Positions 1,818 to 6,220 of a DNA stretch of 6,220 nt are shown here, piece after piece. Source of the stretch: Deltaproteobacteria bacterium. GTDB taxonomy: Bacteria > Desulfobacterota_B > Binatia > UBA9968. The first letter of the stretch is position 1; the number at the start of each line of letters is the position of its first letter. The notes beneath the pieces were generated by a model that was not told where the DNA came from, did no database searches, and saw nothing but the letters and a program-made list of their open reading frames with translations. Where the stretch lies: assembly GCA_022545745.1 (NCBI GenBank), contig JACZQL010000091.1, forward strand, positions 1 to 6,220, given 5' to 3'. Both the position numbers and the translations under genes were made by a program.

Positions 1818-2650
1818 GATTTCCGGACCATTGATGCTGGAAAAAAGGCCTCAGATTCGCTCGCAACGGCCTTTGCCAGGAGGGTCTTTCCAGTTCCGGG
1901 GGGTCCGTGGAGAAGGACTCCTTTGGGGGGATCAATTCCCAGACGATCGAACAACTCCGGGTGCTTGAGGGGTAGCTCGATCATCTCCCGCACCTTCTCC
2001 ACCACCGGCTTGATGCCCCCAAGGTCGTCATAGGTCACCTCCATCACCTCGCGCTCCTTGGGCTCGAGGTGCTCGGGCAAAAGCTCAATCTCTGTCTGCT
2101 CGGAGACGCGCGCGATCCCTTTGGGGACGGTAGCGGTCACCACCAAACGGATCTCCATGAGCCCGAATGCTGGCGACTCCAAAAAGCCACGGAAGAAGTC
2201 GTCTCTGAAGAAATCCGTGGGGAAGGACTGCCTTGCCCGATTAAAGACGGTAGTGGATATGAGGTCGCCTCGAACCAATGGGCGGTAAAGCAGGGTGGGC
2301 TTTAGACCCTCACCGGAGCCGGCGATCTGGAGGCCTTCCTTGGCTGGTGCAAGGCTTACCTTTTTCGCCTCTTTCCAATCCGCCTTTTTGAGTTCCACAT
2401 GTTCACCGATGCCAACGCCGGAGTTACCACGCATCAGGCCGTCCATGCGTACGATGTCGAGGCCTTGGTCTTCGTGATATCCCGGGACCGCAATGGCAGC
2501 AGTGAGTCGCTTGCCCTTGATTTCAATCACGTCGCCGCGTTCGATACCCAGAACCTTGATCTGCTCGGCGCCAATGCGTACGATTCCTTTCCCCACATCC
2601 TGTTGTTGGGCACTGGCGACCTTTAATCGCAATGAATCCTTTGAGGCCAT
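1781..2650 (-). CDS. CDC48/VAT-type AAA+ ATPase, N-terminal part (CDC48 N-domains and D1 Walker A), ended by a frameshift
   Basis: This 289-residue frame is the first half of the same ATPase. Residues about 7-92 match the CDC48 double-psi barrel ([20 protein letters not shown], then GDVIEIKGK). Residues about 110-192 match the second CDC48 N subdomain, which carries an Arg/Phe/Asp-rich stretch (about 136-160) that seems longer than in many archaeal relatives. The linker YDDLGGI (207-213) and the D1 Walker A GPPGTGKT (249-256) follow. Family similarity stops at SEAFF (266-270). The last 19 residues are out of frame, while [15 protein letters not shown] appears in the -1 frame. CDC48 proteins use ATP to extract and unfold substrates in the cytoplasm. 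The ATG at 2650 is supported by GGGAGG at 2668-2663 on the minus strand and a promoter-like site further upstream. As written, the product would have a Walker A but no Walker B and would probably be inactive. Confidence 0.9.
1841..1846 (-). other. Frameshift site in the CDC48-family gene (run of six T on the coding strand)
   Basis: The coding strand reads GCC TTT TTT CCA in the upstream frame. Conserved D1 sequence resumes one base back as TCC AGC ATC AAT GGT (S-S-I-N-G). One additional T in the run, or a -1 slip over it, restores [10 protein letters not shown] and one continuous frame of about 755 codons. A homopolymer of this size is a usual place for a sequencing or assembly error, but a true mutation or slippage is also possible. 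Confidence 0.85.
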
Positions 2651-2689
2651 AACTCTCTCTGTCCTCCCAAACCGTCGCTAGGGTCTACG

Positions 2690-2716
2690 ATTATACGGAT
2701 AAGGCTGAAAAAGCAA
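2690..2716 (-). promoter_or_regulatory. Probable promoter of the CDC48-family gene
   Basis: The minus strand carries a perfect -10 hexamer TATAAT (2695-2690). Fifteen bases upstream is TTGCTT (2716-2711), a weak -35. Transcription would begin near 2683, giving a leader of about 33 bases that contains the GGGAGG Shine-Dalgarno at 2668-2663. The -10 is convincing; the -35 spacing is short. Confidence 0.5.
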
Positions 2717-2729
2717 AATAGGAACGCGG

Positions 2730-2758
2730 TTTTCAATGTCCATGGGAAGTGTTAAAGT
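2730..2758 (+). promoter_or_regulatory. Weak candidate promoter for the plus-strand TonB/repeat-protein operon
   Basis: TTTTCA (2730-2735) and TAAAGT (2753-2758) lie 17 bases apart. Each matches the sigma-70 consensus at four of six positions. The resulting leader before the ATG at 2779 would be only about 14 bases, barely covering the Shine-Dalgarno GGAG at 2768-2771. The divergent arrangement requires a plus-strand promoter somewhere in 2651-2778, but this exact site is uncertain. Confidence 0.25.
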
Positions 2759-2778
2759 AACCGTTTTGGAGCCCGAAG

Positions 2779-3783
2779 ATGGACGCAAAAACCCAAGTCT
2801 CATCACCTCTGGAATTGATTCTGGAAAGAATGAGAAAGTGGGATGGAAGTCCCTGGGGAAGACTTCAAATTCTGAGCCATCAATGGCTCACCCGTCTGGA
2901 AAACCATCCGCTCATCCAATCCTACGGCACTTTGCTGAGAAGATCCCGTGACTCTATCGGCCTCAGGTCCGAACCTGCCATTAATGTAGATTCAGTTTTC
3001 CCCTTCTCCCTGATTTTCCACTTGCTCCTCATTTTCTTCCTGAGCTGGACTGCCATATCGTCCATCGCCTTACCCAAGCCAGGACCCATTCGCGTGCGGT
3101 TTATTGACATTGGCACTCGGCCTAAACGCCAGCCCAAAAAAGTCACGAAGGCGGCCAAGCCCAAGGTCACCCGAGTTCCCCAGAAGGTGGCACCACCACG
3201 ACCAGCCCCAAAGCCAAAGAAGGTACCACCACCGTTACCGGCTCCAAAGATCTTGGCAAAATCATTCAGAGTCGCTCCGGCGACCGTCACCGCCGAGCCC
3301 ACGGAGGCCCTGATCCAGCTACCCACTAGCCAGTCCAGTGCCGTCGAATCACTTCAGTTGAACGTAGAGACCCCACCGGGTGCCACTGTGAGCGCAATAT
3401 CAGAAGACGAACTCAAGCTCCTGAAAGGAGCGGTTCAAGGAATGGGCCTTCCTGCCGTGGAGGGGAACCCCTCGGCCATACAGAGCCCCGATTTCGCTCC
3501 CTACCTAGAAAAAATCAAAAGGAGGGTCGAGTCGGTCTGGGAATATCCAGAGGGAATCCCCGGAAAACACCAGGTAAGTCTGGTATTTGTACTCGATCGG
3601 GGAGGCAAACTGGTCCGGGCAGAGGTCCTAGATGCGACTCACTCCAAGCTGGACCAGGGGGTTTTGGAGGCCGTGAGAAAGGCATCTCCATTCCCGCCAA
3701 TTCCGGAGAGCCTGAAAGACCTCGCGGGATGGCCGCTGCGGATTAAATTCACGATCGACTTCGGGGTAAAGATAGCCAAGTGA
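2779..3783 (+). CDS. TonB-family energy transducer / TonB C-terminal-domain protein
   Basis: This 334-residue protein has a TonB/TolA-like layout. A cytoplasmic N-terminal segment of about 70 residues is followed by one membrane helix (about 73-97, rich in Phe, Leu and Ile). A Pro/Lys-rich periplasmic linker (about 99-160, with repeated PKP, KVPP and RPAPKPKK elements) leads into a C-terminal TonB_C-type domain (about 238-328). That domain has the typical YLEKIKRRVESVW start, a VSLVFVLDRGGKLV strand pair, and VLEAVRKASPFPPIP before the last strand. Such proteins couple inner-membrane energy to outer-membrane partners. The N-terminal extension before the helix is longer than in classic TonB. 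GGAG at 2768-2771, seven bases before the ATG, supports the start. No ExbB or ExbD gene lies in the window. The stop overlaps the next gene's GTG, pointing to translational coupling. It could be a structural TolA/TonB-like protein rather than a true siderophore-uptake TonB. Confidence 0.82.
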   Translation: MDAKTQVSSPLELILERMRKWDGSPWGRLQILSHQWLTRLENHPLIQSYGTLLRRSRDSIGLRSEPAINVDSVFPFSLIFHLLLIFFLSWTAISSIALPKPGPIRVRFIDIGTRPKRQPKKVTKAAKPKVTRVPQKVAPPRPAPKPKKVPPPLPAPKILAKSFRVAPATVTAEPTEALIQLPTSQSSAVESLQLNVETPPGATVSAISEDELKLLKGAVQGMGLPAVEGNPSAIQSPDFAPYLEKIKRRVESVWEYPEGIPGKHQVSLVFVLDRGGKLVRAEVLDATHSKLDQGVLEAVRKASPFPPIPESLKDLAGWPLRIKFTIDFGVKIAK

Positions 3784-5018
3784 GGCGTAAGAGGATAATA
3801 ATAACGGTTGGGGCGTTGTTTTTCAGCTTCCTTGTGAGCATCCTCTGGGTCGCCATTGCGGACGCCCAGAAACCTGTGGCACGGTTCTTTTATGACGAAA
3901 AAGGCAACGTCTCTCGCCAGGAGAGGGATACCAACAACGATGGAAAAATGGACCGCTGGACCCTGTTTAACAGCGACGGGGAGGTCAGTCGAGTTGAACA
4001 GGATGAGAACTTTGACGGGAAGCCTGATATCAGCCTCTATTACGAGAGGGGCAAAATAAAGCGGCAAGAGGTTTCCACCGAACACGATGGCAAGATTGAT
4101 GTTTGGTATTACTACTCCACGATGGGAGAGGTGGAACGCAAAGAGCAGGATAAGAACCGCGACGGGAAACCTGACATTTGGGTCACCTATGAAAACAACC
4201 AGCCTGTTCGAAGCGAGGAGGACACGGACCACGATGGGAAAGTCGAACGTGTGGTCCAATTGAACAATGGGAACATCGTCCGAATCGACGAGGACACGGA
4301 CGGTAGCGGGAAGATAGACACCTGGTCTTACTTTGAGGGAAAGCAGCTAGTCAAAAAGGAGATCGACAAAGACCAAGACGGTAAGGTGGACGTGGTCGGT
4401 CAGTATCGCGATGGTCATCTGGTTAGCCAGGAGGAAGACCTGGATCGAGACGGGGAAAAAGACCGTTTCCTATTTTTTGACCGAGGAGTCCTTTTGAGAA
4501 GAGAGGAGAGCACGCAAAAAAATAGCAAGATTGATCTCATCGAGCTCTACTCCAATGGAACCTTGATGAAACGATTCAAGGATACCAGCAGAGACGGACG
4601 ATTGGACACTCTATACCTCTTCCAGGACAAGCAACTTGTCCGACAGGAAAGTGATACCACCGGCGACGGCACTTTCGACCAAAGGAATATTTACCAGGAT
4701 GGGAAAGCGGTGCGACAGGAGGCTGATACGAACAAGGACCAGAGGGTAGATGTCTGGATCTATTTTAAGAACTCTGAACAGGTCCGACAGGACGAAGATT
4801 TAAACTTTAACGGTAAAATCGACGCCCGCTATCTATTCAAAGACGGACAGGTTACGGAGCAAAAGCGGGTGGCGGAGTTGGCGCCGGATGAGCCGGCCCA
4901 GGATTTTTCCACAATTCAAAAGGAGCTGAGCCGTAAACCCCGTACCACGGACTCACGTCCATTCGACGGCGAGCTCACGGCCGAGCCGCCGCTTTGGGAC
5001 TCTCCTCCTGCGGAGTAA
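3780..5018 (+). CDS. Secreted protein with 13 tandem EF-hand-like calcium-loop repeats
   Basis: The 412-residue product starts at a GTG overlapping the upstream stop (GTGA). It opens with a Sec signal peptide: basic RRKR, a hydrophobic core at about 6-25, and likely cleavage after A29 in AIADA. From about residue 35 to 361 it is made of repeats with a period of 24-25 residues. Each has a loop of type DxNxDGKxD, then W/L-x-x-Y/F, an NG or DG turn, and LVRQE. Loops begin at residues 50, 75, 99, 124, 148, 172, 196, 220, 244, 268, 292, 316 and 340. The 1-3-5-9 acidic pattern with Gly at 6 resembles the metal loops of EF-hands, dockerins and thrombospondin type 3 repeats, so calcium binding is likely. 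Loops 3 and 9 begin with Ser, and loop 9 (STQKNSKID) lacks most ligands. The segment between loops resembles the hairpin of MORN_2/YwqK-type repeats. The tail (365-412) is acidic and Pro-rich. The exact function is unknown; a periplasmic or surface role fits the TonB and lipoprotein neighbours. Confidence 0.82.
   Translation: MRRKRIIITVGALFFSFLVSILWVAIADAQKPVARFFYDEKGNVSRQERDTNNDGKMDRWTLFNSDGEVSRVEQDENFDGKPDISLYYERGKIKRQEVSTEHDGKIDVWYYYSTMGEVERKEQDKNRDGKPDIWVTYENNQPVRSEEDTDHDGKVERVVQLNNGNIVRIDEDTDGSGKIDTWSYFEGKQLVKKEIDKDQDGKVDVVGQYRDGHLVSQEEDLDRDGEKDRFLFFDRGVLLRREESTQKNSKIDLIELYSNGTLMKRFKDTSRDGRLDTLYLFQDKQLVRQESDTTGDGTFDQRNIYQDGKAVRQEADTNKDQRVDVWIYFKNSEQVRQDEDLNFNGKIDARYLFKDGQVTEQKRVAELAPDEPAQDFSTIQKELSRKPRTTDSRPFDGELTAEPPLWDSPPAE
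3882..4862 (+). repeat. Protein-level tandem repeat array, 13 calcium-type loops of 24-25 residues
   Basis: The repeat unit is about 72-75 bases. Loop starts are spaced 25, 24, 25 and 24 residues at first, then a strict 24 for the remaining nine. Codons for the DGK core vary between copies (GATGGAAAA, GACGGGAAG, GATGGCAAG), so the units are old and kept by protein-level selection rather than being recent DNA duplications. Confidence 0.85.
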
Positions 5019-5125
5019 TGGGCTCTCAACAGGTGGTTCGGGGTAAAGCCGAAAACAAAAAAGGTGAAGCAGGAAAATCAATCGTGAAAGCAACCCAAGA
5101 AGGTGTAGATTCCGAGCCGAGGTAA
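5018..5125 (+). CDS. Possible small ORF of 35 codons between the two repeat-protein genes
   Basis: An ATG at 5018-5020 overlaps the upstream stop in TAATG, and the frame closes with TAA at 5123-5125, two bases before the GTG of the lipoprotein gene. The peptide starts MGSQQVVRGKAENKKGEAGK and is Lys/Glu/Gly-rich, with no membrane segment or recognisable motif. GGAG at 5012-5015 lies only two bases from the ATG, too close for ideal initiation, although re-initiation by terminating ribosomes is possible. It may act as a coupling ORF that carries ribosomes to the next gene, or it may be chance. I do not recognise a family. Confidence 0.22.
   Translation: MGSQQVVRGKAENKKGEAGKSIVKATQEGVDSEPR
5119..5122 (+). 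promoter_or_regulatory. Ribosome binding site supporting the GTG start of the repeat lipoprotein
   Basis: GAGG lies five bases before the GTG at 5128. The upstream in-frame stop at 5065 leaves no ATG alternative, so the short signal peptide and this site together fix the start. Confidence 0.55.
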
Positions 5126-5127
5126 AA

Positions 5128-6220
5128 GTGAAGGCTCTTCGTTTGAACAGGCATGCGGGACTTTTCTATGTCCTCACAATTGTTTTTCTAGTGGGGTGCG
5201 GGCCCGCGCCTATGCAGCCCCCCCCTGGCACCTCTGCCGGCCCAAACAAAGCACCCGCACAAGCTGGGCAGCCTCAGTCAACCGTACCAGCAAAACCCCA
5301 GGTCAGTGACTCCCAGAGATGGCAATACGCCTGGAACAGGGCCATGGAGGGAGTCGCCATGGGAGGCACTATCGCAGGCCCATACGGAGCGGGCGGTGGC
5401 CTTATCGTAGGTCTTATCGCCGGACTGCTAACAGCAGATGCGCACTATGGCAAGATACAGGCACAGATCCAGGCCGAGGAGCAGAAAGACAAGGAACTGG
5501 AAGCCCAACTCGAGCGAGAGATCGAGCGGCAGAGAAAGTTGGAGGCGCAACTGGAAAAGGATGTAGAGGCATTGGATTCACAGGGGTCGGAACCAACAGA
5601 GAAGGCCGAGGTAGCGGATTCGGACCAGACCGTCGCAAAGGCAGACCCAGAAACTCCAACCAGCGCAAGCGCCCCATCTGTTGGGGACTCTACACACCCA
5701 GCGGAAACCTCAACCCCTCAGTCCCCCCCAACCCCCGAGGAAACCATGTCAGCTGAGGTAAAGGATCAAATTGGTGCCCTCGCCTCCTTGGGTAAGAAAC
5801 AGGTCAGCTCTGAAATCCCGCCCCCCAGCATTAAAACCGTTGTGCGGAGAGACATCAATAAAGACGGAACCACCGATCTTTGGATCTACTATGATCCCGA
5901 GAATCCCAGCGAGGTGAAACGCCAGGAGGAAGATACCAACTGGGACGGCAGCGTTGATACCTGGAGCGATTTCACCGACGGAAAACTGGTGCGCCGCCAG
6001 TTGGACACCAACGGAGACGATAAAGCCGATAAATTTTTCTACTACGAAAATGAGTCCTTGGCCAAGGTAGAACAAGATGAAAACGGTGAGGGGCAACCGA
6101 ACTACCGCGCCTGGTATACCAATGGACGTCTAGCCAAGGTGGAAAAAGACCTCAACCAGGACGGCAAGATGGACCTTTGGATCTACTATGACACGAACCA
6201 AGATAGAGAAGTCACTGTAA
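5128..6220 (+). CDS. Lipoprotein with glycine zipper, coiled coil and calcium-loop repeats (3' end beyond the window)
   Basis: The frame opens at GTG 5128 and stays open for 364 codons to the window edge. Residues 1-24 form a lipoprotein signal with the lipobox LVGC and acylated Cys24. Residues 25 and 26 are Gly and Pro, so no inner-membrane-retaining Asp follows. A Pro/Ala/Gln linker (26-58) precedes a glycine-zipper segment (about 78-101, Gly-rich with LIVGLIAGLL), which could insert in or pack against a membrane. A charged helix with coiled-coil character follows (about 109-149, Glu/Gln/Lys/Arg-rich), then a Pro/Ser/Thr/Glu-rich linker (152-211). Calcium-type loops begin at 242, 269, 293, 317 and 341: DINKDGTTD, DTNWDGSVD, DTNGDDKAD, DENGEGQPN (degenerate) and DLNQDGKMD. 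WIYY and DGKLVRR or NGRLAKV segments lie between them. These match the repeats of the upstream gene, so the two are probably paralogous in this region. More repeats may lie past 6220. An outer-membrane-anchored partner of the secreted repeat protein is a reasonable inference; the function is unknown. Confidence 0.82.
   Translation, partial: MKALRLNRHAGLFYVLTIVFLVGCGPAPMQPPPGTSAGPNKAPAQAGQPQSTVPAKPQVSDSQRWQYAWNRAMEGVAMGGTIAGPYGAGGGLIVGLIAGLLTADAHYGKIQAQIQAEEQKDKELEAQLEREIERQRKLEAQLEKDVEALDSQGSEPTEKAEVADSDQTVAKADPETPTSASAPSVGDSTHPAETSTPQSPPTPEETMSAEVKDQIGALASLGKKQVSSEIPPPSIKTVVRRDINKDGTTDLWIYYDPENPSEVKRQEEDTNWDGSVDTWSDFTDGKLVRRQLDTNGDDKADKFFYYENESLAKVEQDENGEGQPNYRAWYTNGRLAKVEKDLNQDGKMDLWIYYDTNQDREVTV
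5833..6220 (+). repeat. Second array of the 24-residue calcium-loop repeat, running off the window
   Basis: At least five units are present, with loop spacings of 27, 24, 24 and 24 residues. The loop and hairpin pattern is the same as in 3882-4862, but the units sit behind a lipid anchor, glycine zipper and coiled coil. The fourth unit has lost several acidic ligands (DENGEGQPN). The array is cut by the window edge, so the copy number is a minimum. Confidence 0.8.

Follow-up and report, generated by a model that had tools for sequence, protein, structure and literature searches.

The window analysed here, a stretch of 6,220 nucleotides from a Deltaproteobacteria bacterium (contig JACZQL010000091.1), contains three consecutive genes, g1, g2 and g3, which on balance appear to encode some of the components of a proton-driven envelope machine of the Ton type that has a partner set of its own. 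The product of g1 is a TonB-type force transducer, while those of g2 and g3 are a secreted and a lipid-anchored protein sharing a 24-residue repeat, referred to below as ladder proteins and, in the same reading, likely to be stabilised by calcium. At the sequence level, the genes for a TonB-type transducer, ExbB and ExbD share a locus with that of a long secreted ladder protein of the g2 type. A lipid-anchored ladder protein of the g3 type and a VWA protein join this set in the Binatia-like class, i.e. the class of G001 that comprises the nearest relatives (148 genomes), and in one Myxococcota genome of the same layout.

The three reading frames are real genes that follow one another on the plus strand (Table 1). 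The GTG start of g2 overlaps the stop of g1 as GTGA, and g3 starts at a GTG located 109 bases past the g2 stop, its frame being still open at the end of the window. A scan of positions 2600-6220 revealed seven terminator-like sites against a shuffle mean of 5.4, of which the only one on the plus strand lies within g1 (3569-3584), so that none separates g1, g2 and g3 on that strand. Promoter-like sites numbered four against 1.8 expected; a weak one on the plus strand (3773-3802) spans the g1/g2 joint. No Rfam family matched the window at its gathering score. The arrangement described in the initial annotation, with its overlap, its gap and no intervening terminator, is thus borne out by the frames and the terminator scan. 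The same holds for the claim that g2 and g3 share one repeat and differ in their delivery modules (Sec-type leader and lipobox, respectively, both recognised by eye).

The architecture of the g1 protein is that of a transducer, with about 70 residues preceding a membrane helix that contains S77-x-x-x-H81, a proline-rich linker and a TonB C-terminal domain. Its profile scores are 37.7 bits for PF13103 (TonB_2, cut-off 22) and 34.7 bits for TIGR01352 (cut-off 27.1); with PF03544 (TonB_C) it reaches 20.9 bits, under the cut-off of 24.6. Both S77 and H81 are invariant in an alignment of 48 rows including g1, the others being drawn from the 120 relatives listed, and the SxxxH pattern occurs in 36 of 40 TonB frames of other loci, a count that includes two doubtful frames and some duplicates. 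In TonB and TolA, this pattern is the motor-coupling motif (PMC12204202). Among the relatives of g1, found at 83-94% identity, is one that bears the name Candidatus Binatia, while the best relative of g2 does not exceed 54% identity in a word-based search, a gap that is either an artefact of this type of search or a real difference.

The repetitive nature of g2 is apparent from a self-identity of 0.25 at lag 24, compared with a mean of 0.07 over lags, and its confident AlphaFold2 model (mean predicted local distance difference test, pLDDT, 86.3) shows beta-hairpins arranged as a ladder, every turn bearing a DxNxDG loop. Strict loops number eight in g2 and three in the visible part of g3, versus 0.03 and 0.01 in shuffled sequences; the repeat numbers themselves (13 in g2, at least five in g3) are a reading of periodicity and loop analysis. 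When the 13 loops of g2 are compared with D-x-[DN]-x-D-G-x-x-D, the aspartate at position 1 is present in 11, D or N at position 3 in nine, the aspartate at position 5 in 10, the glycine at position 6 in 11 and the aspartate at position 9 in 12. These letters satisfy the DxDxDG-type pattern of calcium loops, and the ladder proteins may possibly bind calcium on that basis. The g2 sequence profile found no match among solved structures at E-values up to 1, and a tblastn search of viral contigs found no relative. The top Foldseek rows for the ladder (Rhs, teneurin and Tc entries) were discarded as chance matches between beta-hairpins, with template modelling scores below 0.2 and root-mean-square deviations of about 30 or more.

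A genome scan with the TonB alignment yielded 52 loci, and g2- and g3-type genes were found on the same contig in all of the 10 best. In the Binatia-like class, matches to g2 occur in 32 of the 148 genomes, 20 of them with the long form, which are those containing the gene set, and 12 with short proteins only; the latter were left out of the set counts and kept as a control. In a tblastn map of the 20 loci, g3, TonB and ExbB are each found in 20, g2 in 19, and ExbD and VWA in 18, VWA being counted on the same contig. The locus without g2 (G427) is cut, and in G010 the ExbB match covers 19 residues where the contig ends, and VWA, ExbD, ExbB and TonB are located on a separate contig (L212). These genomes contain between one and five MotA_ExbB genes each, and one of them lies within 8 kb in 19 of the 20 loci, against 0.2 expected. 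At the loci of the short repeat proteins and lipoproteins (frames of 158-226 residues), ExbB, ExbD or TonB was matched in 0/13 cases; these short proteins are found at L221-L231, L172 and L173, some with a lipobox.

Two layouts are seen in this class. In the first, g2, g3, TonB, ExbB and ExbD are co-directional and VWA faces them; in the second, TonB, sometimes a VTT gene, g2 and g3 head towards ExbD, ExbB and VWA, which are encoded on the other strand. The nearest syntenic genome, G403 (L103), has the second layout and is 82% identical to the window for CDC48, 55% for the N-terminal part of g1 and 55% for g3. Its ExbD, ExbB and VWA genes follow just past g3, beyond the point where the window ends; the window itself shows no ExbB or ExbD gene. 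The VWA orthologue is found in 22 of the 148 genomes, always at an E-value of 1e-146 or better and with no weaker match down to 1e-20. It shares 19 genomes with the gene set (Fisher 7e-20, a value inflated by kinship). As for the VWA genomes outside the set, VWA has ExbB and ExbD as neighbours in G414 and G417, G414 also has a g3 fragment at a contig end, and G426 is cut. The VTT/DedA-type membrane protein is fused to a repeat protein in P0003 and P0055, and its gene stands between TonB and g2 in L104, L111 and L114. Closeness of ladder and TonB domain is further supported by a fusion, P0025, a single metagenomic protein of 317 residues on a 1216-base contig that combines a lipobox (recognised by eye) with some five repeats and a TonB_C domain (55.6 bits).

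Outside the Binatia-like class, where strict E-value limits (1e-20 or 1e-25) restrict the counts to strong relatives, the set stays together while gene order and strand vary. In the class of G113 (with L019, Desulfobacteraceae), 18 of 85 genomes gave 24 loci in which ExbB (23), ExbD (22) and TonB (19) lie beside the repeat protein; one of these loci, L186, stops at the repeat gene. A sample of the phylum added seven new genomes among 11 matching out of 247, with eight loci containing ExbB in eight, ExbD in seven and TonB in six (L192 has an ExbB match and none to ExbD or TonB). All three genomes in the phylum of G437 (with L015, Nitrospinae) match, with ExbB and ExbD in three and TonB in two. 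In the phylum of G435 (with L012, Myxococcales), 15 of 140 genomes match and, together with G436, provide 16 loci with TonB in 15 and ExbB in 12. These 16 loci leave out the G436 repeat frames L218 and L219, which have no Ton match, and the lipoprotein/VWA pairs L217 and L220. In those pairs, which form second loci devoid of Ton genes, the gene opposite VWA encodes a coiled-coil repeat protein (L217, 5607-8633; L220, 3728-6196; genomes G435 and G436, with a lipobox in G436). Overall, the long repeat protein has TonB or ExbB as a neighbour in 31/32 further Desulfobacterota-type loci, 3/3 Nitrospinae-type genomes and 15/16 Myxococcota loci, and the two loci lacking both are truncated by contig ends. 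As the Binatia-like and Desulfobacterota-type classes form one phylum, the Nitrospinae and Myxococcota groups bring the total to three phyla in the grouping of the tool used. The Myxococcota genome with the layout of the window, G628 (L201), also contains the Gly-zipper lipoprotein and VWA. ExbD frames fall outside the strict Asp pattern in 6/44 cases. What we take to be an ABC-2-type permease-like frame recurs near five of 11 Myxococcota loci (L200, L203, L206, L207 and L208).

Given these linkages, a mechanism can be proposed. ExbB and ExbD would convert proton flow into movement of TonB, which would span the periplasm. Calcium held in the DxNxDG loops might stiffen the ladder proteins, which would be positioned on the periplasmic side of the outer membrane (g3 through its lipid) and would hold, guide or receive the TonB C-terminal domain, thereby passing force on to an outer-membrane client. 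This client is probably a TonB-dependent transporter where the locus has one, as in some Desulfobacterota-type loci. As part of this explanation, the set would somewhat more plausibly work as a Ton system with auxiliary proteins than as a free calcium sensor. The initial annotation had suggested a calcium-dependent envelope-spanning assembly or sensor: that the genes belong with a Ton motor in a conserved set is upheld by the linkage counts, while no evidence speaks for the sensor. Homologues of the repeat proteins do lie near TonB-type genes elsewhere, and the co-occurrence it had proposed to look for, a TonB gene with two adjacent repeat proteins, is found in the Binatia-like loci and in one Myxococcota genome; TonB with the long repeat protein is also found in Desulfobacterota-type, Nitrospinae-type and other Myxococcota loci. 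By sequence, the set is also wider than first thought, since it includes ExbB and ExbD, as well as VWA in the Binatia-like class.

Several points weigh against the proposal of a Ton-type machine with its own partners. Gene neighbourhood does not amount to interaction, and the genomes share ancestry; moreover, the groups outside the Binatia-like class were reached via genomes initially picked up with a TonB pattern, with a possible bias towards linkage. Calcium binding is deduced from loop letters only, and Foldseek/VIA matches yielded no functional lead. No gene for a TonB-dependent transporter was found within 12 kb in the 20 Binatia-like loci, though 18 of the 20 genomes encode receptors. 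A second long g2-like gene exists in G003 (L113, 10639-12430; outside the 20 loci), accompanied by a VTT gene, with no ExbB, ExbD or TonB nearby. Finally, a search with P0025 found no second fusion of this kind.

In the first alternative, the machine is an importer of metals or metallocofactors. The repeat protein would then act in the periplasm as the binding or delivery component of TonB-dependent uptake, and its acidic loops would hold cargo metal instead of structural calcium. Among the 24 Desulfobacterota-type loci, a TonB-dependent receptor lies nearby in 10, DUF4198 in seven, an FmdE-like gene in three and CbiM in two, counts that include reference rows named by Pfam (three receptors, two DUF4198, one CbiM and one FmdE), and receptors are also near five of the eight further loci of this type. 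Genes of these four kinds are seen near the repeat and Ton genes at L163, L165, L167, L168, L177, L179, L180 and L184. Furthermore, the only MotA_ExbB genes found in G004, G007, G008 and G009 are the Tol one and that of the ladder locus, and receptors are present, so that the ladder-locus motor may be the general Ton motor in these genomes, as far as incomplete genomes tell. The nearby receptors and some metal-uptake genes therefore make import a serious alternative. It is nevertheless considered unlikely, given the lack of any receptor gene within 12 kb in the 20 Binatia-like genomes, the receptor references that match nothing in Myxococcota or Nitrospinae-type loci, the receptor-like frame of L160 that has no Pfam match, and the high number of loops (up to 13-30 per protein), which look structural.

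A more ambitious interpretation, regarded as doubtful, is that of a further class of proton-driven trans-envelope machine beside Mot, Ton, Tol and Agl. The engine would pull a force-bearing or gating calcium-loaded beta-ladder, the lipid-anchored twin would fix the ladder to the outer membrane, VWA would dock on the ladder, and periplasmic calcium would decide whether force is transferred. The nearest published idea is that of vWA force transducers of obscure function found beside TolQR-like motors (PMC12204202), which share with the present set a VWA fold linked to an ExbB/TolQ-type motor. In that account, VWA forms the C-terminal domain of a membrane-tethered transducer, whereas a separate TonB is present here. 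The VWA protein of L008, the one sequence inspected by eye, has a leader and shows neither SxxxH, nor a long linker, nor an SHLS-type membrane helix. The main text of PMC12204202 contains neither ‘calcium’ nor ‘Binatota’.

A Tol-Pal-like tether of the outer membrane, with TonB acting as TolA, g3 as Pal, and g2 and VWA in the places of TolB and CpoB, is improbable. The likeness lies in the combination of motor, transducer, lipoprotein and secreted proteins, and the best scores of ExbB and ExbD are with TolQ and TolR models, below cut-offs. However, the set has no TolB or Pal domain. The canonical Tol-Pal system was rejected as a candidate, since TolB is on another contig in 18 of the 20 genomes and was not found in the other two, and since no OmpA or TolB domain was detected in the scanned proteins.

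The ladder proteins could also be calcium-dependent surface adhesins, exported or displayed with the help of the Ton motor, yet we know of no export route through such a motor and this explanation is quite improbable. It stems from the best NCBIfam match of both proteins, Lsa25.6 (NF050087), with 74.4 bits for g2 and 37.1 bits for g3, far under the curated cut-off of 150. Lsa25.6 is a Leptospira adhesin, described as a recombinant leptospiral surface protein (PMC7662565). With it and with YwqK/MORN_2-type repeat proteins, the ladders have in common a short beta-hairpin repeat, but they stay below family cut-offs; several homologues are named ‘antitoxin component YwqK’ by JGI. The single-layer sheet of OspA (2fkj) and MORN1 (6t4r) superpose poorly, at 9% and 8% identity, which indicates a common arrangement and no kinship. 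Lastly, chance or passive neighbourhood without functional link, to which the non-independence of related genomes and the absence of Ton genes at L113 would lend themselves, can hardly be upheld in view of three phyla, altered gene orders, 19/20 loci against 0.2 expected and the short-protein control.

With respect to the Ton system itself, the likeness consists of the TonB C-terminal domain, the SxxxH helix of g1 and the ExbB and ExbD genes in the loci of relatives; the difference lies in the extra proteins, here 24-residue beta-hairpin repeat proteins and VWA, and in the lack of a nearby receptor in the Binatia-like class. A precedent for extra operon proteins is the Vibrio TonB2 system with TtpB2 and TtpD2, and likewise TtpC2, in which such proteins can be essential and a TPR link is mentioned for TtpD2 only (PMC6957404). 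In one open-access library, surveyed by titles and abstract openings, no account was found of such repeat proteins with Ton motors.

Table 1. Coordinates of the features of g1, g2 and g3 in the window
Feature	Position	Strand	Evidence
g1, TonB-type force transducer, 334 residues	2779..3783	+	PF13103 and TIGR01352 over cut-off; relatives at 83-94% identity
g1, membrane helix with S77-x-x-x-H81	3001..3063	+	S77 and H81 invariant columns in alignment of relatives
g1, TonB C-terminal domain	3490..3780	+	Pfam stretch 240-311
g2, secreted repeat protein, 412 residues, Sec-type leader	3780..5018	+	leader by eye; AlphaFold2 pLDDT 86.3
g2, 13 repeats of ~24 residues, each a beta-hairpin with DxNxDGxxD-type loop	3927..4868	+	periodicity, AlphaFold2 model, loop letters
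g3, lipoprotein with g2-type repeat, ends with the window	5128..6220	+	frame, loci of relatives, alignment
g3, lipobox LVGC (Cys24)	5188..5199	+	by eye; Cys invariant in 9 aligned relatives (C19 of L004 protein)
g3, Gly-zipper hydrophobic stretch	5353..5439	+	by eye; many Gly columns invariant across aligned relatives
g3, charged helix, probable coiled coil	5446..5577	+	helix 54-138 of L004 homologue model, pLDDT ~70-79 mostly
g3, repeats, five visible	5851..6219	+	loop and periodicity analysis; L004 homologue model shows the same ladder

On the minus strand, g1-g3 are neighboured by a gene for a CDC48/VAT-type AAA ATPase (384-2650), which is split into two overlapping frames (1781-2650 and 384-1817) and therefore points to a frameshift or an assembly error near 1781-1845. 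The CDC48 parts matching this gene share one frame in G403 (L103), according to coordinate arithmetic. The same strand contains at 1-159 a gene start resembling the N-terminal domain of thiamine-pyrophosphate enzymes (PF02776, 21.4 bits, below the cut-off of 26.8).

Ton motors are usually described as consisting of ExbB, ExbD, TonB and a receptor. That a ladder family stays beside the motor across three phyla, in varied gene orders and in one case fused to a TonB domain, hints at a component acting between motor and outer membrane that has so far gone unnoticed in large, mainly uncultured bacterial groups. This offers a testable role for proteins now labelled ‘antitoxin YwqK’ or ‘hypothetical’, and bears on the role of TonB-like transducers where no receptor gene is nearby.

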